Below, one piece after another: positions 6,138 through 12,038 of a stretch of 24,854 nt of DNA. The DNA lies in the IMG/VR virus record IMGVR_UViG_3300030450_000811, positions 1 through 24,854 of that record. One strand, given 5' to 3'. This DNA is from a virus. Each line of letters begins with the position of its first letter. Position 1 is the stretch's first letter. The notes under the pieces were generated by a model, which worked only from the letters and a program-made list of their open reading frames with translations, had not been told where the DNA came from and searched no databases. The position numbers and the translations under genes were made by a program.

Positions 6138-6169
6138 TTTATTTGCTCCAGTTAATTAATAATACATTT

Positions 6170-6198
6170 AGTATATAGATTAGTTTTCTATATGTAAA
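6170..6198 (-). promoter_or_regulatory. Leftward sigma70-type early promoter
   Basis: On the minus strand TTTACA (6198-6193) and TATACT (6175-6170) are separated by exactly 17 bp; each matches the consensus at five of six bases. The start point would fall near 6163, giving a leader of about 25 nt before ATG 6137 that contains the Shine-Dalgarno. This is the best candidate for the promoter of the first leftward operon. Confidence 0.7.
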
Positions 6199-6487
6199 CA
6201 TAATAATATAAATAAATGCTAATAATTATTAATAGTAAAATAGGGAATTAATCAATAGAATCTGCGACATTATAAAACAATACCTATAATAACTATATAA
6301 CAAGGCATATAATAAAAACTTAATACGCTGTAACCAATTAATTAAATAATATGTAATTCAATATTTTCTATAAAATGCTAGTAATCTAGTATTCTTATTA
6401 TACTGTAGTATATACTGAAGGCTTTCTGAATACATACTATATATTAACTATAAACTATTAACTATATAATATATATAAGGTTGCTAT

Positions 6488-6535
6488 GGTTTTAATAGGA
6501 GTTATGGCATTTTAATTAATAAAGAGATTAAAACC
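6488..6535. other. Stem-loop, 9-bp perfect stem
   Basis: GGTTTTAAT (6488-6496) pairs exactly with ATTAAAACC (6527-6535) around a 30-nt loop containing GGAG and TTAATTAAT. The arms are A/T-rich, so it could act as a duplex element in DNA or RNA. No gene is attached to it. Confidence 0.4.
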
Positions 6536-6570
6536 TTTACAAAAAAGAATAGGAGCTAGGAGCAGCTATT

Positions 6571-6785
6571 TTGTTCTCTTTATGTTCCTTATAGCACCAT
6601 AGTAGCTATATCGTAGCCGTACAGCAACGCAATTAGTATGCTTTACTTGATATCATTTTATATACTTAATGGCATTGTGTGATTACTACAGAGGATATAT
6701 TTGTTCTATATATGTTCTATTAGTAACTGTTCTCTATTTGTTCCATAATATATTTGTTCTTGCTATGTTCTAGTGTATAAGGTTC
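6571..6785 (+). repeat. Array of paired TGTTCY half-sites, 11-bp spacing
   Basis: Four direct-repeat pairs read TGTTCT-N5-TGTTCY, with the GTTC cores at 6573/6584, 6703/6714, 6729/6740 and 6756/6767, always 11 bp apart. A further GTTC stands at 6782. In the dense part (6703-6782) the spacing alternates 11, 15, 11, 16, 11, 15 bp. The pairs share flanking T-rich bases (TTTGTTCT, TATGTTC). This regularity suggests a protein bound to one face of the helix, such as a replication initiator, transcription activator or the small terminase, whose gene starts about 190 bp downstream. Confidence 0.7.
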
Positions 6786-6792
6786 ATTACAA

Positions 6793-6816
6793 AAATTTAT
6801 TTTTGAAATTTATTTT
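6793..6816. repeat. Tandem duplication of an 11-mer, 13-bp period
   Basis: AAATTTATTTT occurs at 6793-6803 and again at 6806-6816, separated by TG. It is A/T-only and lies between the TGTTCY array and a GC-richer hairpin. It could be a DNA-unwinding element next to an origin, or simple low-complexity sequence. Confidence 0.4.
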
Positions 6817-6823
6817 ACAAATC

Positions 6824-6874
6824 GGATGTGGGGTGGTACTGGTGCTAATCTAAAGGCATATATCAAACACATCC
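6824..6874. other. GC-richer inverted repeat upstream of terS promoter
   Basis: GGATGTG (6824-6830) pairs with CACATCC (6868-6874), enclosing 37 nt that begin GGGTGGTACTGGTGC. It is the most G-rich patch in an otherwise very AT-rich region and sits about 50 bp before the late promoter. A packaging-cut or recognition site is one option; a terminator against leftward readthrough is another. Confidence 0.35.
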
Positions 6875-6922
6875 CAAACACCTACTTTTAATTTTATAAA
6901 ATAGTAAAAAACAAAAAAGGTT

Positions 6923-6951
6923 TTGACATAAGGGTTTAAATTAATTATATG
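6923..6951 (+). promoter_or_regulatory. Rightward promoter for the packaging/head operon
   Basis: TTGACA (6923-6928, perfect -35) is followed after 17 bp by TATATG (6946-6951). Transcription would start near 6958, about 20 nt before the terS start. No other rightward promoter of comparable quality is seen in the window, so this may drive the entire late operon, with the upstream TGTTCY array as a possible control site. Confidence 0.6.
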
Positions 6952-6977
6952 TGGGTATAACTGTATTGGAGATATGG

Positions 6978-7352
6978 ATGAAAGGCAGACCAAAGTTTGA
7001 ACCCACAGAGGAGAATAAGAAGCAGGTAGAATTAGCTGTTGGGTTTGGATTGAATCAGGACCAGATTGCAAAGCTAATGAGCTGTGATGTTACTACCCTC
7101 AGGAAATATTTTAGGCATGAATTAGATGCTGGTAAGGAGAAGATGGTAATGTCTATTGGTAGTCAGTTGTATAAGAAGGCTATGAAGGGGGATACGATCT
7201 CGGCAATATTTTTAGCAAAGACGAAGGGTGGTTTTAGAGAAACTGTTGAGCATGAAGGACTGCCGAATAATATTACAGTTAGTTTTAATTTAGATAATAA
7301 GAAAGAGATTGATGCAGAAGTTGTGCAACACAAATTAACGCAGGGAGAATAA
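6978..7352 (+). CDS. terS: Terminase small subunit
   Basis: 124 aa from ATG 6978, chosen because TTGGAGATATGG precedes it; an upstream GTG at 6951 would place the start within the promoter. The sequence GRPKFEPTEENKKQVELAV, GLNQDQIAKLMSCDVTTLRKYFRHELDAGKEK, then KKAMKGDTISAIFLAKTKGGFRE fits by eye the common phage TerS pattern: an N-terminal helix-turn-helix DNA-binding domain (about 16-45) followed by an oligomerisation helix and a 'gdt.aaifwlKtr.gWre' motif. It recognises phage DNA and delivers it to TerL, encoded just downstream. First gene of the late operon. Confidence 0.85.
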   Translation: MKGRPKFEPTEENKKQVELAVGFGLNQDQIAKLMSCDVTTLRKYFRHELDAGKEKMVMSIGSQLYKKAMKGDTISAIFLAKTKGGFRETVEHEGLPNNITVSFNLDNKKEIDAEVVQHKLTQGE

Positions 7353-7685: not shown

Positions 7686-9020
7686 ATGCACATAACCATT
7701 CCTTACACACCAAGACCACAACAAGCAGACTTGCATAAAAATAATAAACGATTTAAAATTTGTGTATCACACAGAAGATGGGGTAAATCTGTTTATGCAA
7801 TTACAGAAATATTACGACAAGCATTACAAATAAAAACAGAAAGAAATGATGGTAGGTTTGCATACATAGCTCCTTATTATCGACAGGCAAAAGCTGTGGC
7901 TTGGGATTATTTATTATATTATACAAAAGATATTCCTGGTACTAAAGTAAATCAATCTGAACTACGAGTAGACTTATTAAATGGTAGTCGTATCCGATTG
8001 TATGGTGCAGGAGATGACCCTGATGCTTTGAGAGGAATATTTTTAGATGGATGCGTTATGGATGAGTATGCTGATATGTCTCCTAGAATGTGGAGTGAAG
8101 TGATACGACCTGCGTTAACCGATAGAAAAGGGTGGGCAATATTTATTGGTACACCAAAAGGTAGAAATCAATTCTGGCAATTATATGAAGATACAAAACA
8201 TGATAGTGAATGGCATAGAGCAATTTATCGTGCAAGTGAAACAGGTGTAGTAGACCCACAAGAATTAGAAGCAGCAAAAAAACAAATGGGTGAAGATGAA
8301 TATATGCAAGAATTTGAATGTTCTTGGGCAGCTGCCATTAAAGGTTCTTACTATGGTAATTTAATTATAGAAGCAGAACAAGAAGGACGAATTACAAAAG
8401 TAGAAAGAGACCCAGCTCTACCTGTGCATGTAGCATGGGATTTAGGAATATCGGATAGTTGTGCATTATGGTTTTTCCAAGTTACAATGGGTGAAATCAG
8501 AATATTTGATTATTATGAAAGTGCTGGAGTTGGATTAGACCACTATGTAAAAGTAATGGATGAAATGCAAATAGAATACTGGGGTGATGATTATTTACCT
8601 CATGATGCTAAAGTACGAGAACTAGGTACAGGCAGAACCAGAGCAGAAACTTTAATCAATATGGGTAGACGACCACGCATAGTTCCTAATCATAAAGTTG
8701 ATGATGGAATTAATGCTGTACGATTATTGTTGCAAAATTGTTATTTTGATGTTAAGAGATGTGAAAATGGCATTAATGCTTTGAGGAATTATCAAAGAGA
8801 ATGGGATGATGTGAAAAGAGTATTTAAAAGAAACCCTTTACATAATTGGGCATCACATGGTAGTGATAGTTTTAGGTACTTAGCTATGTCGTATAAAAAT
8901 ATAAAACCAAAAGAAAAAGAACCAGATATTATGAAAGAATTACTGCGTACTCCAACACTAGATGAAATGATGGATATGCACGACAGAGAACAACGCAACA
9001 AACCAGAGAAAAGAATTTAA
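7686..9020 (+). CDS. terL: Terminase large subunit (packaging ATPase and nuclease)
   Basis: 444 aa. ATPase domain: Walker A-like HRRWGKS (29-35), Walker B CVMDEYADM (D126, E127) and coupling motif GTPKG (155-159). Nuclease domain: three acidic sites at AWDLGISDS (D252), LPHDAK (D307) and HGSDSFRY (D394). It pumps DNA into the prohead through the portal and cuts the concatemer. The full set of motifs shows it is intact. The start ATG 7686 has only a weak ribosome site; no better in-frame start exists before the stop at 7644. The gene ends TAATG with the next one. Confidence 0.95.
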   Translation: MHITIPYTPRPQQADLHKNNKRFKICVSHRRWGKSVYAITEILRQALQIKTERNDGRFAYIAPYYRQAKAVAWDYLLYYTKDIPGTKVNQSELRVDLLNGSRIRLYGAGDDPDALRGIFLDGCVMDEYADMSPRMWSEVIRPALTDRKGWAIFIGTPKGRNQFWQLYEDTKHDSEWHRAIYRASETGVVDPQELEAAKKQMGEDEYMQEFECSWAAAIKGSYYGNLIIEAEQEGRITKVERDPALPVHVAWDLGISDSCALWFFQVTMGEIRIFDYYESAGVGLDHYVKVMDEMQIEYWGDDYLPHDAKVRELGTGRTRAETLINMGRRPRIVPNHKVDDGINAVRLLLQNCYFDVKRCENGINALRNYQREWDDVKRVFKRNPLHNWASHGSDSFRYLAMSYKNIKPKEKEPDIMKELLRTPTLDEMMDMHDREQRNKPEKRI

Positions 9021-9652
9021 TGAATGAAGAAGAAATAGTATTAAACGAAGAAAGAAAAAAAATTTTAGCAAGTATGCTTAAAAAAGATGGCAATTTAAAT
9101 GATTTAAATTATGTGTTAAATAAGATAGAAAGTACAAAAAAAGAGATTGAGCCTTATTTTTTAGGAGACCCTATAGATTTAGATAGACCAGGTTATTTAA
9201 ATGATAAAATGATAAATGAAATGAATGAAGCTAGAGTACAAGGAGGAAGACCTTTAATAACAAATGATGAAATAACTAATATTGATAGGTATATTAGTAT
9301 GACAAGAAATGAAGAAAGACAAAAAAAATCAGGAATAAAAATATTTTCAGATGATGTAAAATCTTTAATGAAAGATGTAGAATATAAAAAATTACTTGGT
9401 TTAGCTGATGCTTTAAGAAATCCACCAGAAGGAGTTTCTGGCAGGGAAGTATTAGATTTAGAATATAATATAGATAGAGAATATCCTAGTGTATCCTCTC
9501 CTATGAATTCTCAGAGATTAGAATATATTCCTGGTAGTGTAAATCAAAATAGATTAGGTATAAGAAATGTTGAAGGCAATCTACCTACAGAAATTATAAG
9601 AGATGATGAACCATTAATTAATTATTATGAAAATTTAAGAAGAATGAGATAA
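9020..9652 (+). CDS. Unknown protein between TerL and portal
   Basis: 210 aa. The start overlaps the terL stop (TAATG). It is charged and mostly helical in the first 140 residues (LNEERKKILASMLKK, LNYVLNKIESTKKEI), with a Pro-rich segment (GDPIDLDRPGYLND), then a less structured C-terminal part rich in Asn, Pro and Arg ending ENLRRMR. No known domain was recognised. Its position between packaging motor and portal genes suggests a head-assembly or packaging accessory, but nothing in the sequence proves this. Confidence 0.6.
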   Translation: MNEEEIVLNEERKKILASMLKKDGNLNDLNYVLNKIESTKKEIEPYFLGDPIDLDRPGYLNDKMINEMNEARVQGGRPLITNDEITNIDRYISMTRNEERQKKSGIKIFSDDVKSLMKDVEYKKLLGLADALRNPPEGVSGREVLDLEYNIDREYPSVSSPMNSQRLEYIPGSVNQNRLGIRNVEGNLPTEIIRDDEPLINYYENLRRMR

Positions 9653-9684
9653 AAAAAATAAAAAAAACAGGATAAGGAGATATA

Positions 9685-10080
9685 ATGGCAACAATGTATA
9701 ATAGACCTATGACAAAAGAAGAAGAAGATAGAATGATGATGGCTCAAAGTTTAAAAAATAATAATATGATGATGGCAGATAATAATACAGTAATAAGAGA
9801 ATCTGAATATCCTGCTGATTATACAACAGGTCCTACTTTAATACCACCAGATGCAGATATGTCTCAATTTAATGAAGTAACAGGAACTGGTGTAGCTGAC
9901 CCTTCATCAGTCGTTAGGGAATCAGAAATATTAAATCAAGGAATAAATTTAGACCCTAACTCAGTAGTAAGGCAAACAGAAACAATATCTCCTATGGGAA
10001 CACCTATGACACCAGAACAAATAGATGAAGAAATTATGAGATTACAGATATTAAAAAATCAAATGATGATGGGTAATTAA
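9685..10080 (+). CDS. Methionine-rich protein with three VVRESE repeats
   Basis: 131 aa. A strong ribosome site (AAGGAGATATA) precedes ATG 9685. Three copies of a nonapeptide are spaced through the protein: NNTVIRESE (33-41), PSSVVRESE (73-81) and PNSVVRQTE (91-99). Met makes up about 16 residues, with MMM at 17-19, 28-30 and 127-129, and the C-terminus is an amphipathic helix (PEQIDEEIMRLQILKNQ). It is acidic and likely disordered between repeats. Immediately before portal, it may be a virion or assembly factor that binds a repeated partner; no family was recognised. Confidence 0.6.
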   Translation: MATMYNRPMTKEEEDRMMMAQSLKNNNMMMADNNTVIRESEYPADYTTGPTLIPPDADMSQFNEVTGTGVADPSSVVRESEILNQGINLDPNSVVRQTETISPMGTPMTPEQIDEEIMRLQILKNQMMMGN

Positions 10081-12038
10081 TGGCAGAAACTAGAAAAGAA
10101 ATGGAAGTAGTGCAAGGTACTGCACAATACTGGCAAATGGAATTAGAAAGTGCTGACCAAACTGAAAAGGATTGGAGAGAAAGAGGTAGAGCTGTTGTAG
10201 CACGATACAGGGATGAAAGAAGTGCAGATAGTTTTGGTGCAGGGTTATATAAGCAGTTTAATATTCTATGGTCTAATACAGAAACTATGAAAGGTGCATT
10301 ATTTGCTCGTATGCCAAAAGCAGATGTGCGTAGAAGATATAACGATAACAACCCTATAACAAGACAAGTAGCTATCGTACTAGAAAGAGCATTACAATAC
10401 GGAAATGAGGTATATTCAGCAGATAAACCAATAAAAGCTGCATTAGAGGACTATTTACTACCAGGAAGAGGGGTAGTTTGGGTAGTTTATGAGCCTATTT
10501 TTGTAAAAGAAACCATACAAGTAGAATCTTTAGATGAATTTGGCAATATGGTAATGATAGACCAAGAAGAAGAAAGAATAGCAGATCAAAGATGTTATTT
10601 TGAGTACATAAATTGGGAAGATTACAGAGAAAGTCCTGCAAAAAGACCAGAAGATGTATATTGGAAGGCAAGAAGGCACTTACTTACAAGAGATGAATTA
10701 ATAGAAAAAGGCTTTAAAAATGCATCCAATATACCTTTAAATTGGTCTCCTGAACCTACTGAAGGCTATAATGAAGAGTATTCTGAGGTATTTTCTCGTG
10801 CAGAAGTATGGGAAATATGGGATAAATACAAAGAAAAACGATATTTTGTATCAAAAGGCTACAATGAAATACTAGCAGAAGATGATGACCCTTATGGATT
10901 AGAGAAATTTTTTCCTTGTCCTGATTCATTAGTAGCAATAAGAACCAATGAAACAAGTGTTCCTATACCAGAGTTTACATTGTATCAAGACCAAGCTGAT
11001 GAATTAGATAGAATTACAACAAGAATAAGTAATCTAATAGAAGGATTAAAAAGAAGGGGTGTATATGATGCTTCTGTGCCAGAATTATCACATTTAGCAG
11101 ATGCTGGAGATAATGATTTTGTACCTTCAGAGAATTTTGCACAATTAGCAGCAAAAGGGGGATTGCAACAAGTATTTCAGCAAGAAGATATATCGCCTAT
11201 TGCACAGGTTTTAGCTGGTTTATATCAACAAAGAAACCAAGTTTTAGACACAATATATCAAATAACAGGCATATCAGATATTATTAGAGGTTCTACAAAA
11301 GCTAGTGAAACAGCTACAGCACAGCAATTAAAGGCACAATTTGGTAGTATGCGTATGCGTAAAAAACAATCTGAAATAGCTGAATATATTAGAGATTTAT
11401 TTAGAATAAAAGCAGAAATTATAGCAGAACACTATGAACCAGAAACTTTAGCAGCTATGACAGCTCTTACTATAAGCCCAGAAATGATGCAAATAATGCG
11501 TGATGATAAATTAAGAGGATATAGTATAGATATAGAAACAGATGCTACAATTTTTACAGATGAAGAACAAGAAAAAAAGACTAGAATAGAATTTTTATCA
11601 TCTTTTGGAGGATATTTACAACAAGCTATCGGTATAGCAAATCAATCACCTGCTTTAACACCACTAGCATTTCAAGCACTACGATTTTTAATGGGTGCAT
11701 GGAAAGTAGGTAGAACTTTTGAGGATGTGATAGATAGAACAGAAGCACAACTAACACAACAAGCTCAACAAGCATTACAAGCTGGTCCACAACCTTCAGA
11801 AGCTGAAAGAATTGCTGCACAGAAGATGCAAACAGAAATGGCTAAAGAGGAATTAAAACAACAAGGTAAACTAGCAGACATACAGGCAAGGGAAAGAGCA
11901 TCTGGCAATAAAGTAATGACAGAAGCACAATCAAGCCAAGCAAGGTCTGATGCAAAGAAAGAGTTAGCATTATTAGATAGTGATATGAAAATAGCTGAAG
12001 AAATGAATAAGGAAGCAAGAGATGAGTTACAGAGATAA
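10080..12038 (+). CDS. Portal protein (head-tail connector, P22-like class)
   Basis: 652 aa, the size of podovirus portals. The N-terminal region has 'W...E....K.WreRgr.vv.rYrdeR' and NILWSNTETMKGALFARMPK, and the middle has ITGISDIIRGSTKASETATAQQLKAQF, the conserved portal segment that lines the stem and wing of the dodecamer. The C-terminal 120 residues are Gln/Lys-rich coiled coil (TQQAQQALQAGPQPSEAERIAAQK). It forms the unique vertex ring through which TerL pumps DNA. Its start overlaps the previous stop (TAATG) and its end overlaps the next gene by 17 nt. Confidence 0.88.
   Translation: MAETRKEMEVVQGTAQYWQMELESADQTEKDWRERGRAVVARYRDERSADSFGAGLYKQFNILWSNTETMKGALFARMPKADVRRRYNDNNPITRQVAIVLERALQYGNEVYSADKPIKAALEDYLLPGRGVVWVVYEPIFVKETIQVESLDEFGNMVMIDQEEERIADQRCYFEYINWEDYRESPAKRPEDVYWKARRHLLTRDELIEKGFKNASNIPLNWSPEPTEGYNEEYSEVFSRAEVWEIWDKYKEKRYFVSKGYNEILAEDDDPYGLEKFFPCPDSLVAIRTNETSVPIPEFTLYQDQADELDRITTRISNLIEGLKRRGVYDASVPELSHLADAGDNDFVPSENFAQLAAKGGLQQVFQQEDISPIAQVLAGLYQQRNQVLDTIYQITGISDIIRGSTKASETATAQQLKAQFGSMRMRKKQSEIAEYIRDLFRIKAEIIAEHYEPETLAAMTALTISPEMMQIMRDDKLRGYSIDIETDATIFTDEEQEKKTRIEFLSSFGGYLQQAIGIANQSPALTPLAFQALRFLMGAWKVGRTFEDVIDRTEAQLTQQAQQALQAGPQPSEAERIAAQKMQTEMAKEELKQQGKLADIQARERASGNKVMTEAQSSQARSDAKKELALLDSDMKIAEEMNKEARDELQR

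Follow-up and report, generated by a model that had tools for sequence, protein, structure and literature searches.

Tandem LexA-type boxes upstream of terS in a marine phage, probable operators for the SOS repressor of the host

The window, i.e. the whole stretch of DNA analysed here, is a 24,854-base IMG/VR virus record. Its divergent intergenic region carries four TGTTCY-N5-TGTTCY pairs, which are probably operators through which the LexA protein of the host blocks a rightward promoter until the SOS response is induced. What we observe is the motif itself, its conservation among relatives, its identity with SOS boxes of SAR11 bacteria and its independence from the small terminase subunit TerS.

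Nine GTTC cores are present in the region, at 6573, 6584, 6703, 6714, 6729, 6740, 6756, 6767 and 6782. The steps between them (11, then 119, then 11, 15, 11, 16, 11 and 15 bp) agree with the alternating spacing described in the first-pass annotation. Eight of the cores make up the four exact pairs, which start at 6572, 6702, 6728 and 6755. In other words, there are four exact GTTC-N7-GTTC direct repeats (6573, 6703, 6729 and 6756), the arrangement that characterizes the alphaproteobacterial LexA operator. All four lie on the plus strand: a distal LexA-type box, TGTTCTCTTTATGTTCC (6572-6588, core 6573-6587), which is an exact match and is retained in most relatives; box 1, TGTTCTATATATGTTCT (6702-6718, core 6703-6717); box 2, TGTTCTCTATTTGTTCC (6728-6744, core 6729-6743); and box 3, TGTTCTTGCTATGTTCT (6755-6771, core 6756-6770). 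The ninth core at 6782 had been counted with the others, but it falls outside the array and is not conserved among the relatives. The pair-to-pair distance of 26-27 bp stands as described; it corresponds to about 2.5 helical turns, so adjacent pairs would lie on opposite faces of the DNA. The number of pairs greatly exceeds the chance expectation, and the array is real. In dinucleotide-preserving shuffles of positions 6139-6977 (n=3000) the mean was 0.001 pairs and four pairs were never reached, and in shuffles of the whole window (n=300, both strands) the mean was 0.33 pairs with a maximum of 3, three pairs within 85 bp never being reached.

The earlier suggestion that paired direct half-sites in a transcription-control region are bound by a protein is supported by conservation, whereas the motif itself had gone unrecognized: GTTC-N7-GTTC is the LexA box of the alphaproteobacteria (PMC3323433; PMC12700426). 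SAR11 genomes were reached with a 16S probe. One lexA gene each was found in 15 of 18 of them, and GTTCTAYAAAAGTTC is located at the start of lexA in all 15. The phage-like form TGTTCT-N5-TGTTC was searched in ten of the genomes that had yielded lexA. The umuDC genes of SAR11 are preceded by the exact 16-mer TGTTCTTGTTTTGTTC, which is identical to box 3 of one relative of the window (L009), and the ribonucleotide reductase gene is preceded by TGTTCTATAAATGTTC and variants thereof. The form of box 1 in the window, TGTTCTATATATGTTC, also occurs upstream of ribonucleotide reductase in a SAR11-type genome from Baikal (G033). At the recA loci of SAR11, by contrast with these genes, an exact box was not seen. 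The phage array and the alphaproteobacterial boxes (Caulobacter, SAR11) thus share the half-site, the 7-base spacing and the direct repeat, and some 16-mers are identical to SAR11 boxes. They differ in arrangement: in the phage, three boxes follow one another at 26-27 bp and a further box lies about 130 bp upstream, whereas the host boxes that we saw are single. As a separate observation, the LexA-type box at the SAR11 ribonucleotide reductase gene lies about 100 bp upstream of it (e.g. L255, L256, L260 and L264), which suggests that dNTP supply is under SOS control in SAR11.

Relatives of the window were collected via terS, and their terS identity defines the types used here. Three forward boxes, always in steps of 26 and 27 bp, are found in 15 of 19 type-A sequences (window included); in most of these a fourth box lies about 130 bp upstream of the triple array. 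The cores of boxes 1 and 2 are invariant in 13 distinct relatives, and so are those of box 3 among the relatives. Over the 13 distinct phage arrays, none of the 24 core bases varies, as against 19 of the 44 other columns (P 4e-5, random placement), i.e. flanks and spacers drift while the box cores stay fixed. Boxes occur in both orientations among the relatives; for instance, the distal box is replaced by a reversed one at a similar position in L001, L008, L015 and L017. Every relative with the triple array has an open frame running through it. A coding explanation was nevertheless rejected: the eight third-codon positions within the cores are invariant too, and synonymous and non-synonymous counts were no better than in another frame. 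On both grounds the constraint acts on the DNA. Two full-length relatives measure 32.9 and 33.8 kb, and each is a circular permutation of the other.

The genes on the two sides of the region run in opposite directions. Those left of about 6138 are leftward (an exonuclease, a resolvase-like nuclease and an HTH_39 protein), and those from terS on are rightward (terS, terL, portal and the capsid region). The terS gene (6978-7352, plus strand; PHROG terminase small subunit, E 9e-9) more likely starts at the ATG at 6978 behind a GGAG than at the GTG at 6951. The terL gene (7686-9020, plus strand; PHROG terminase large subunit, E 2e-44) is the first large late gene downstream. A well-conserved terS promoter, TTGACA-N17-TATATG (6923-6951, plus strand), is situated about 150 bp beyond the last box; it is retained in type A and has the form TTTACA-N17-TATATG in type B. 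A candidate promoter nested in the array (6721-6749, plus strand) was identified by consensus match alone, with a weak -35 TAGTAA (6721-6726) between boxes 1 and 2 and a -10 CATAAT (6744-6749) between boxes 2 and 3, and it aims rightward at terS. When both strands of about 590 bp were scored in 15 relatives, this site had the highest median sigma-70 score. Its -10 is TATAAT in the relatives and CATAAT in the window; its -35 is not conserved. We also note two features in the early region of relatives. L282 has an insertion that encodes two DNA methylases, N6/N4 and C5 (7924-9997), and that the window lacks at that place, and both L282 (4938-5237) and L281 (13132-13431) encode a small SET-domain protein (Pfam SET, E 1e-10).

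From these elements we infer both the binding of LexA and the promoter that it controls. Host LexA would bind the three tandem boxes around the nested promoter; its occupancy of boxes 2 and 3 would cover that promoter and block RNA polymerase. Rightward transcription toward terS and the late genes would be held back as long as LexA is bound. Phage replication or damage to the host would then load RecA filaments, LexA would cleave itself and the promoter would open. It has been reported that infection by the pelagiphage HTVC027P raises recA, lexA and umuDC of its SAR11 host (PMC12753301), which implies that the SOS system is present and responsive in that infection. Against the operator reading stand the missing conservation of the -35 of the nested promoter and its CATAAT -10 in the window, the distance of about 150 bp between the last box and the well-conserved terS promoter, and the existence of a relative, L011, with zero boxes upstream of its terS. 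The lack of an exact box at SAR11 recA, and of a comparable array in the cultured pelagiphage sequences examined (see below), weighs against it as well.

Similar arrays lie close to the terminase genes of several further TerL lineages. Paired boxes of the SAR11 type occur in at least 119 IMG/VR stretches, some of which are low-complexity tandem repeats without regulatory meaning, as compared to 21 for the reversed control. An earlier scan for three GTTC pairs was swamped by 11-bp tandem repeats with both the real and the reversed pattern, and the paired-box pattern was used instead. Among the matches listed, a terL is found at a distance of up to 3 kb for 36 of 117 real loci as opposed to 1 of 21 control loci. 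The terL queries here were the window and four cultured pelagiphages; they replaced queries taken from array loci, with which an earlier enrichment had been biased. About 10 of the 36 listed loci near terL belong to the lineage of the window, and the others are similar to those of HTVC027P, HTVC023P or Baldr or to terminases that are more distant. No array comparable to that of the window was seen in cultured HTVC010P or in the stretches of HTVC023P and HTVC027P that were examined. In the latter two, other direct repeats are arrayed close to terS: HTVC023P has four copies of ACTAGGAAAA (L527 378-454) and HTVC027P has four of GCTTGTGGCTT (L526 1976-2083). Clusters of other motifs, i.e. the DnaA-box-like TGTGGATAA as well as CTGCACAG, TACTAAGG and CAAGTATTC, were noted upstream of terL in L083, L105, L106, L086, L091, L110 and L459. 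In a set of other marine phages, clustered repeats of different motifs were found upstream of terL in 10 of 45 cases and downstream in 0 of 45. This points to a general control region for which LexA would be one input.

The position of the array just upstream of terS had raised the possibility of a TerS recognition site (pac or cosB), and the clustered repeats upstream, and not downstream, of terL in other marine phages would speak for it too. The R sites of lambda cosB are bound by TerS, and they resemble the array in being repeated sites near terS. Unlike lambda cosB, however, the array is absent, reduced or reversed in relatives whose TerS is 98-100% identical: there are three forward boxes in L013, two reversed ones in L015 and L017 and none in L011 (TerS identity 99% in the last three). 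In L016, with 100% identity over 121 aligned residues, the contig begins 285 bp upstream and one reversed box is visible. The TerS idea fails since relatives that share the same TerS do not all have the array, and an unrelated TerS (L304) is the neighbour of an array with this motif; we consider it very improbable. The constant neighbour of type-A terS is instead a strongly conserved G-rich block, CGGATGTGGGGTGGTACTGGTGCTAATCTAAAGGCATATA (6823-6863, plus strand). Every type-A relative has it, whether boxes are present or not, and type B has a variant of it. If a packaging site (cos or pac) is nearby, this block is more likely to be it than the array. A structured RNA downstream of the array was considered and rejected (fold z -1.4), and no Rfam family matched the 6823-6863 block.

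The main rival use of the same LexA sites is a sponge. Here, the boxes would titrate host LexA as phage genomes multiply, and SOS genes including ribonucleotide reductase, hence dNTP supply, would be derepressed. The four boxes per genome, the larger numbers in other phages, the mixed orientations and the LexA-type box at SAR11 ribonucleotide reductase would all suit this, as would the host SOS induction and nrd upregulation described in phage infection (PMC12753301). But the 26 and 27 bp spacing and the internal promoter-like sequence occur in all relatives with a triple array, and a pure sponge needs neither. Because the spacing is fixed and the promoter is nested, these sequence features lean to repression, and we consider titration unlikely. 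It is less likely still that a regulator encoded by the phage recognizes GTTC half-sites by coincidence and has the boxes as its operators. Many of the early proteins of the phage lack annotation and arrays of different short motifs occupy the same place in other marine phages, yet the motif, the N7 spacing and even entire 16-mers match host LexA boxes, and the same motif is found in phages with unrelated terminases. Moreover, the sole recognized early HTH protein, HTH_39, does not track the array, being 95% identical in L011 and 79% identical in a type-C genome, both of which lack boxes. It had also been proposed that the repeats are origin iterons for a replication initiator. The region is AT-rich, divergent and located at the cumulative GC skew minimum, but the skew goes with the direction of the genes, no initiator was found to track the array and the half-sites are LexA-type. 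Nothing specific speaks for such an array, and its probability seems to us as slight as that of the TerS site.

The LexA operator reading calls for a host whose LexA reads GTTC-N7-GTTC, and the identity of the host is likewise inferred: SAR11 is favoured. The best cultured relatives of TerL are Pelagibacter phages (45-47%). No close terL was found in 397 SAR11 genomes, where the relatives reach 29-48% only, and the portal resembles that of Mx8-type phages and is not pelagiphage-like. The head module (7686-12038) is a mosaic, with a terL like that of HTVC010P-type pelagiphages (45-47%) and a portal like that of Myxococcus Mx8-type phages (about 32%).

Phages that co-opt LexA have been described. 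GIL01, CTX phage and SPC32H, as cited in PMC9437464, have LexA-type sites in a phage control region like the window does. They are temperate or SOS-inducible, whereas the array of the window faces the late operon. No integrase, plasmid-maintenance gene or lysogeny repressor was found among the ORFs listed or scanned, which are part of the ORFs of the window and of the two full-length relatives. Sites for the host regulator CtrA in alphaproteobacterial phages have been proposed to defer the lytic cycle (PMC9437464). The array is similar in that it consists of host-regulator sites, but the regulator is different, with an SOS rather than a cell-cycle input. We found no publication that describes LexA boxes in pelagiphages or the titration of LexA by a phage.

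It is conceivable, though we hold it only tentatively, that marine phages which appear lytic, belong to several unrelated terminase lineages and in many cases possibly infect SAR11 have independently placed tandem operators for host LexA before their late genes, and that they use SOS without lysogeny, either as a timer that senses replication or through a LexA sponge. If this is true, the lytic programme of abundant marine phages would be tied to the SOS state of the host, and tandem GTTC-N7-GTTC would be a sequence signature of alphaproteobacterial hosts. It would also make testable why pelagiphage infection induces recA, lexA, umuDC and nrd of SAR11.
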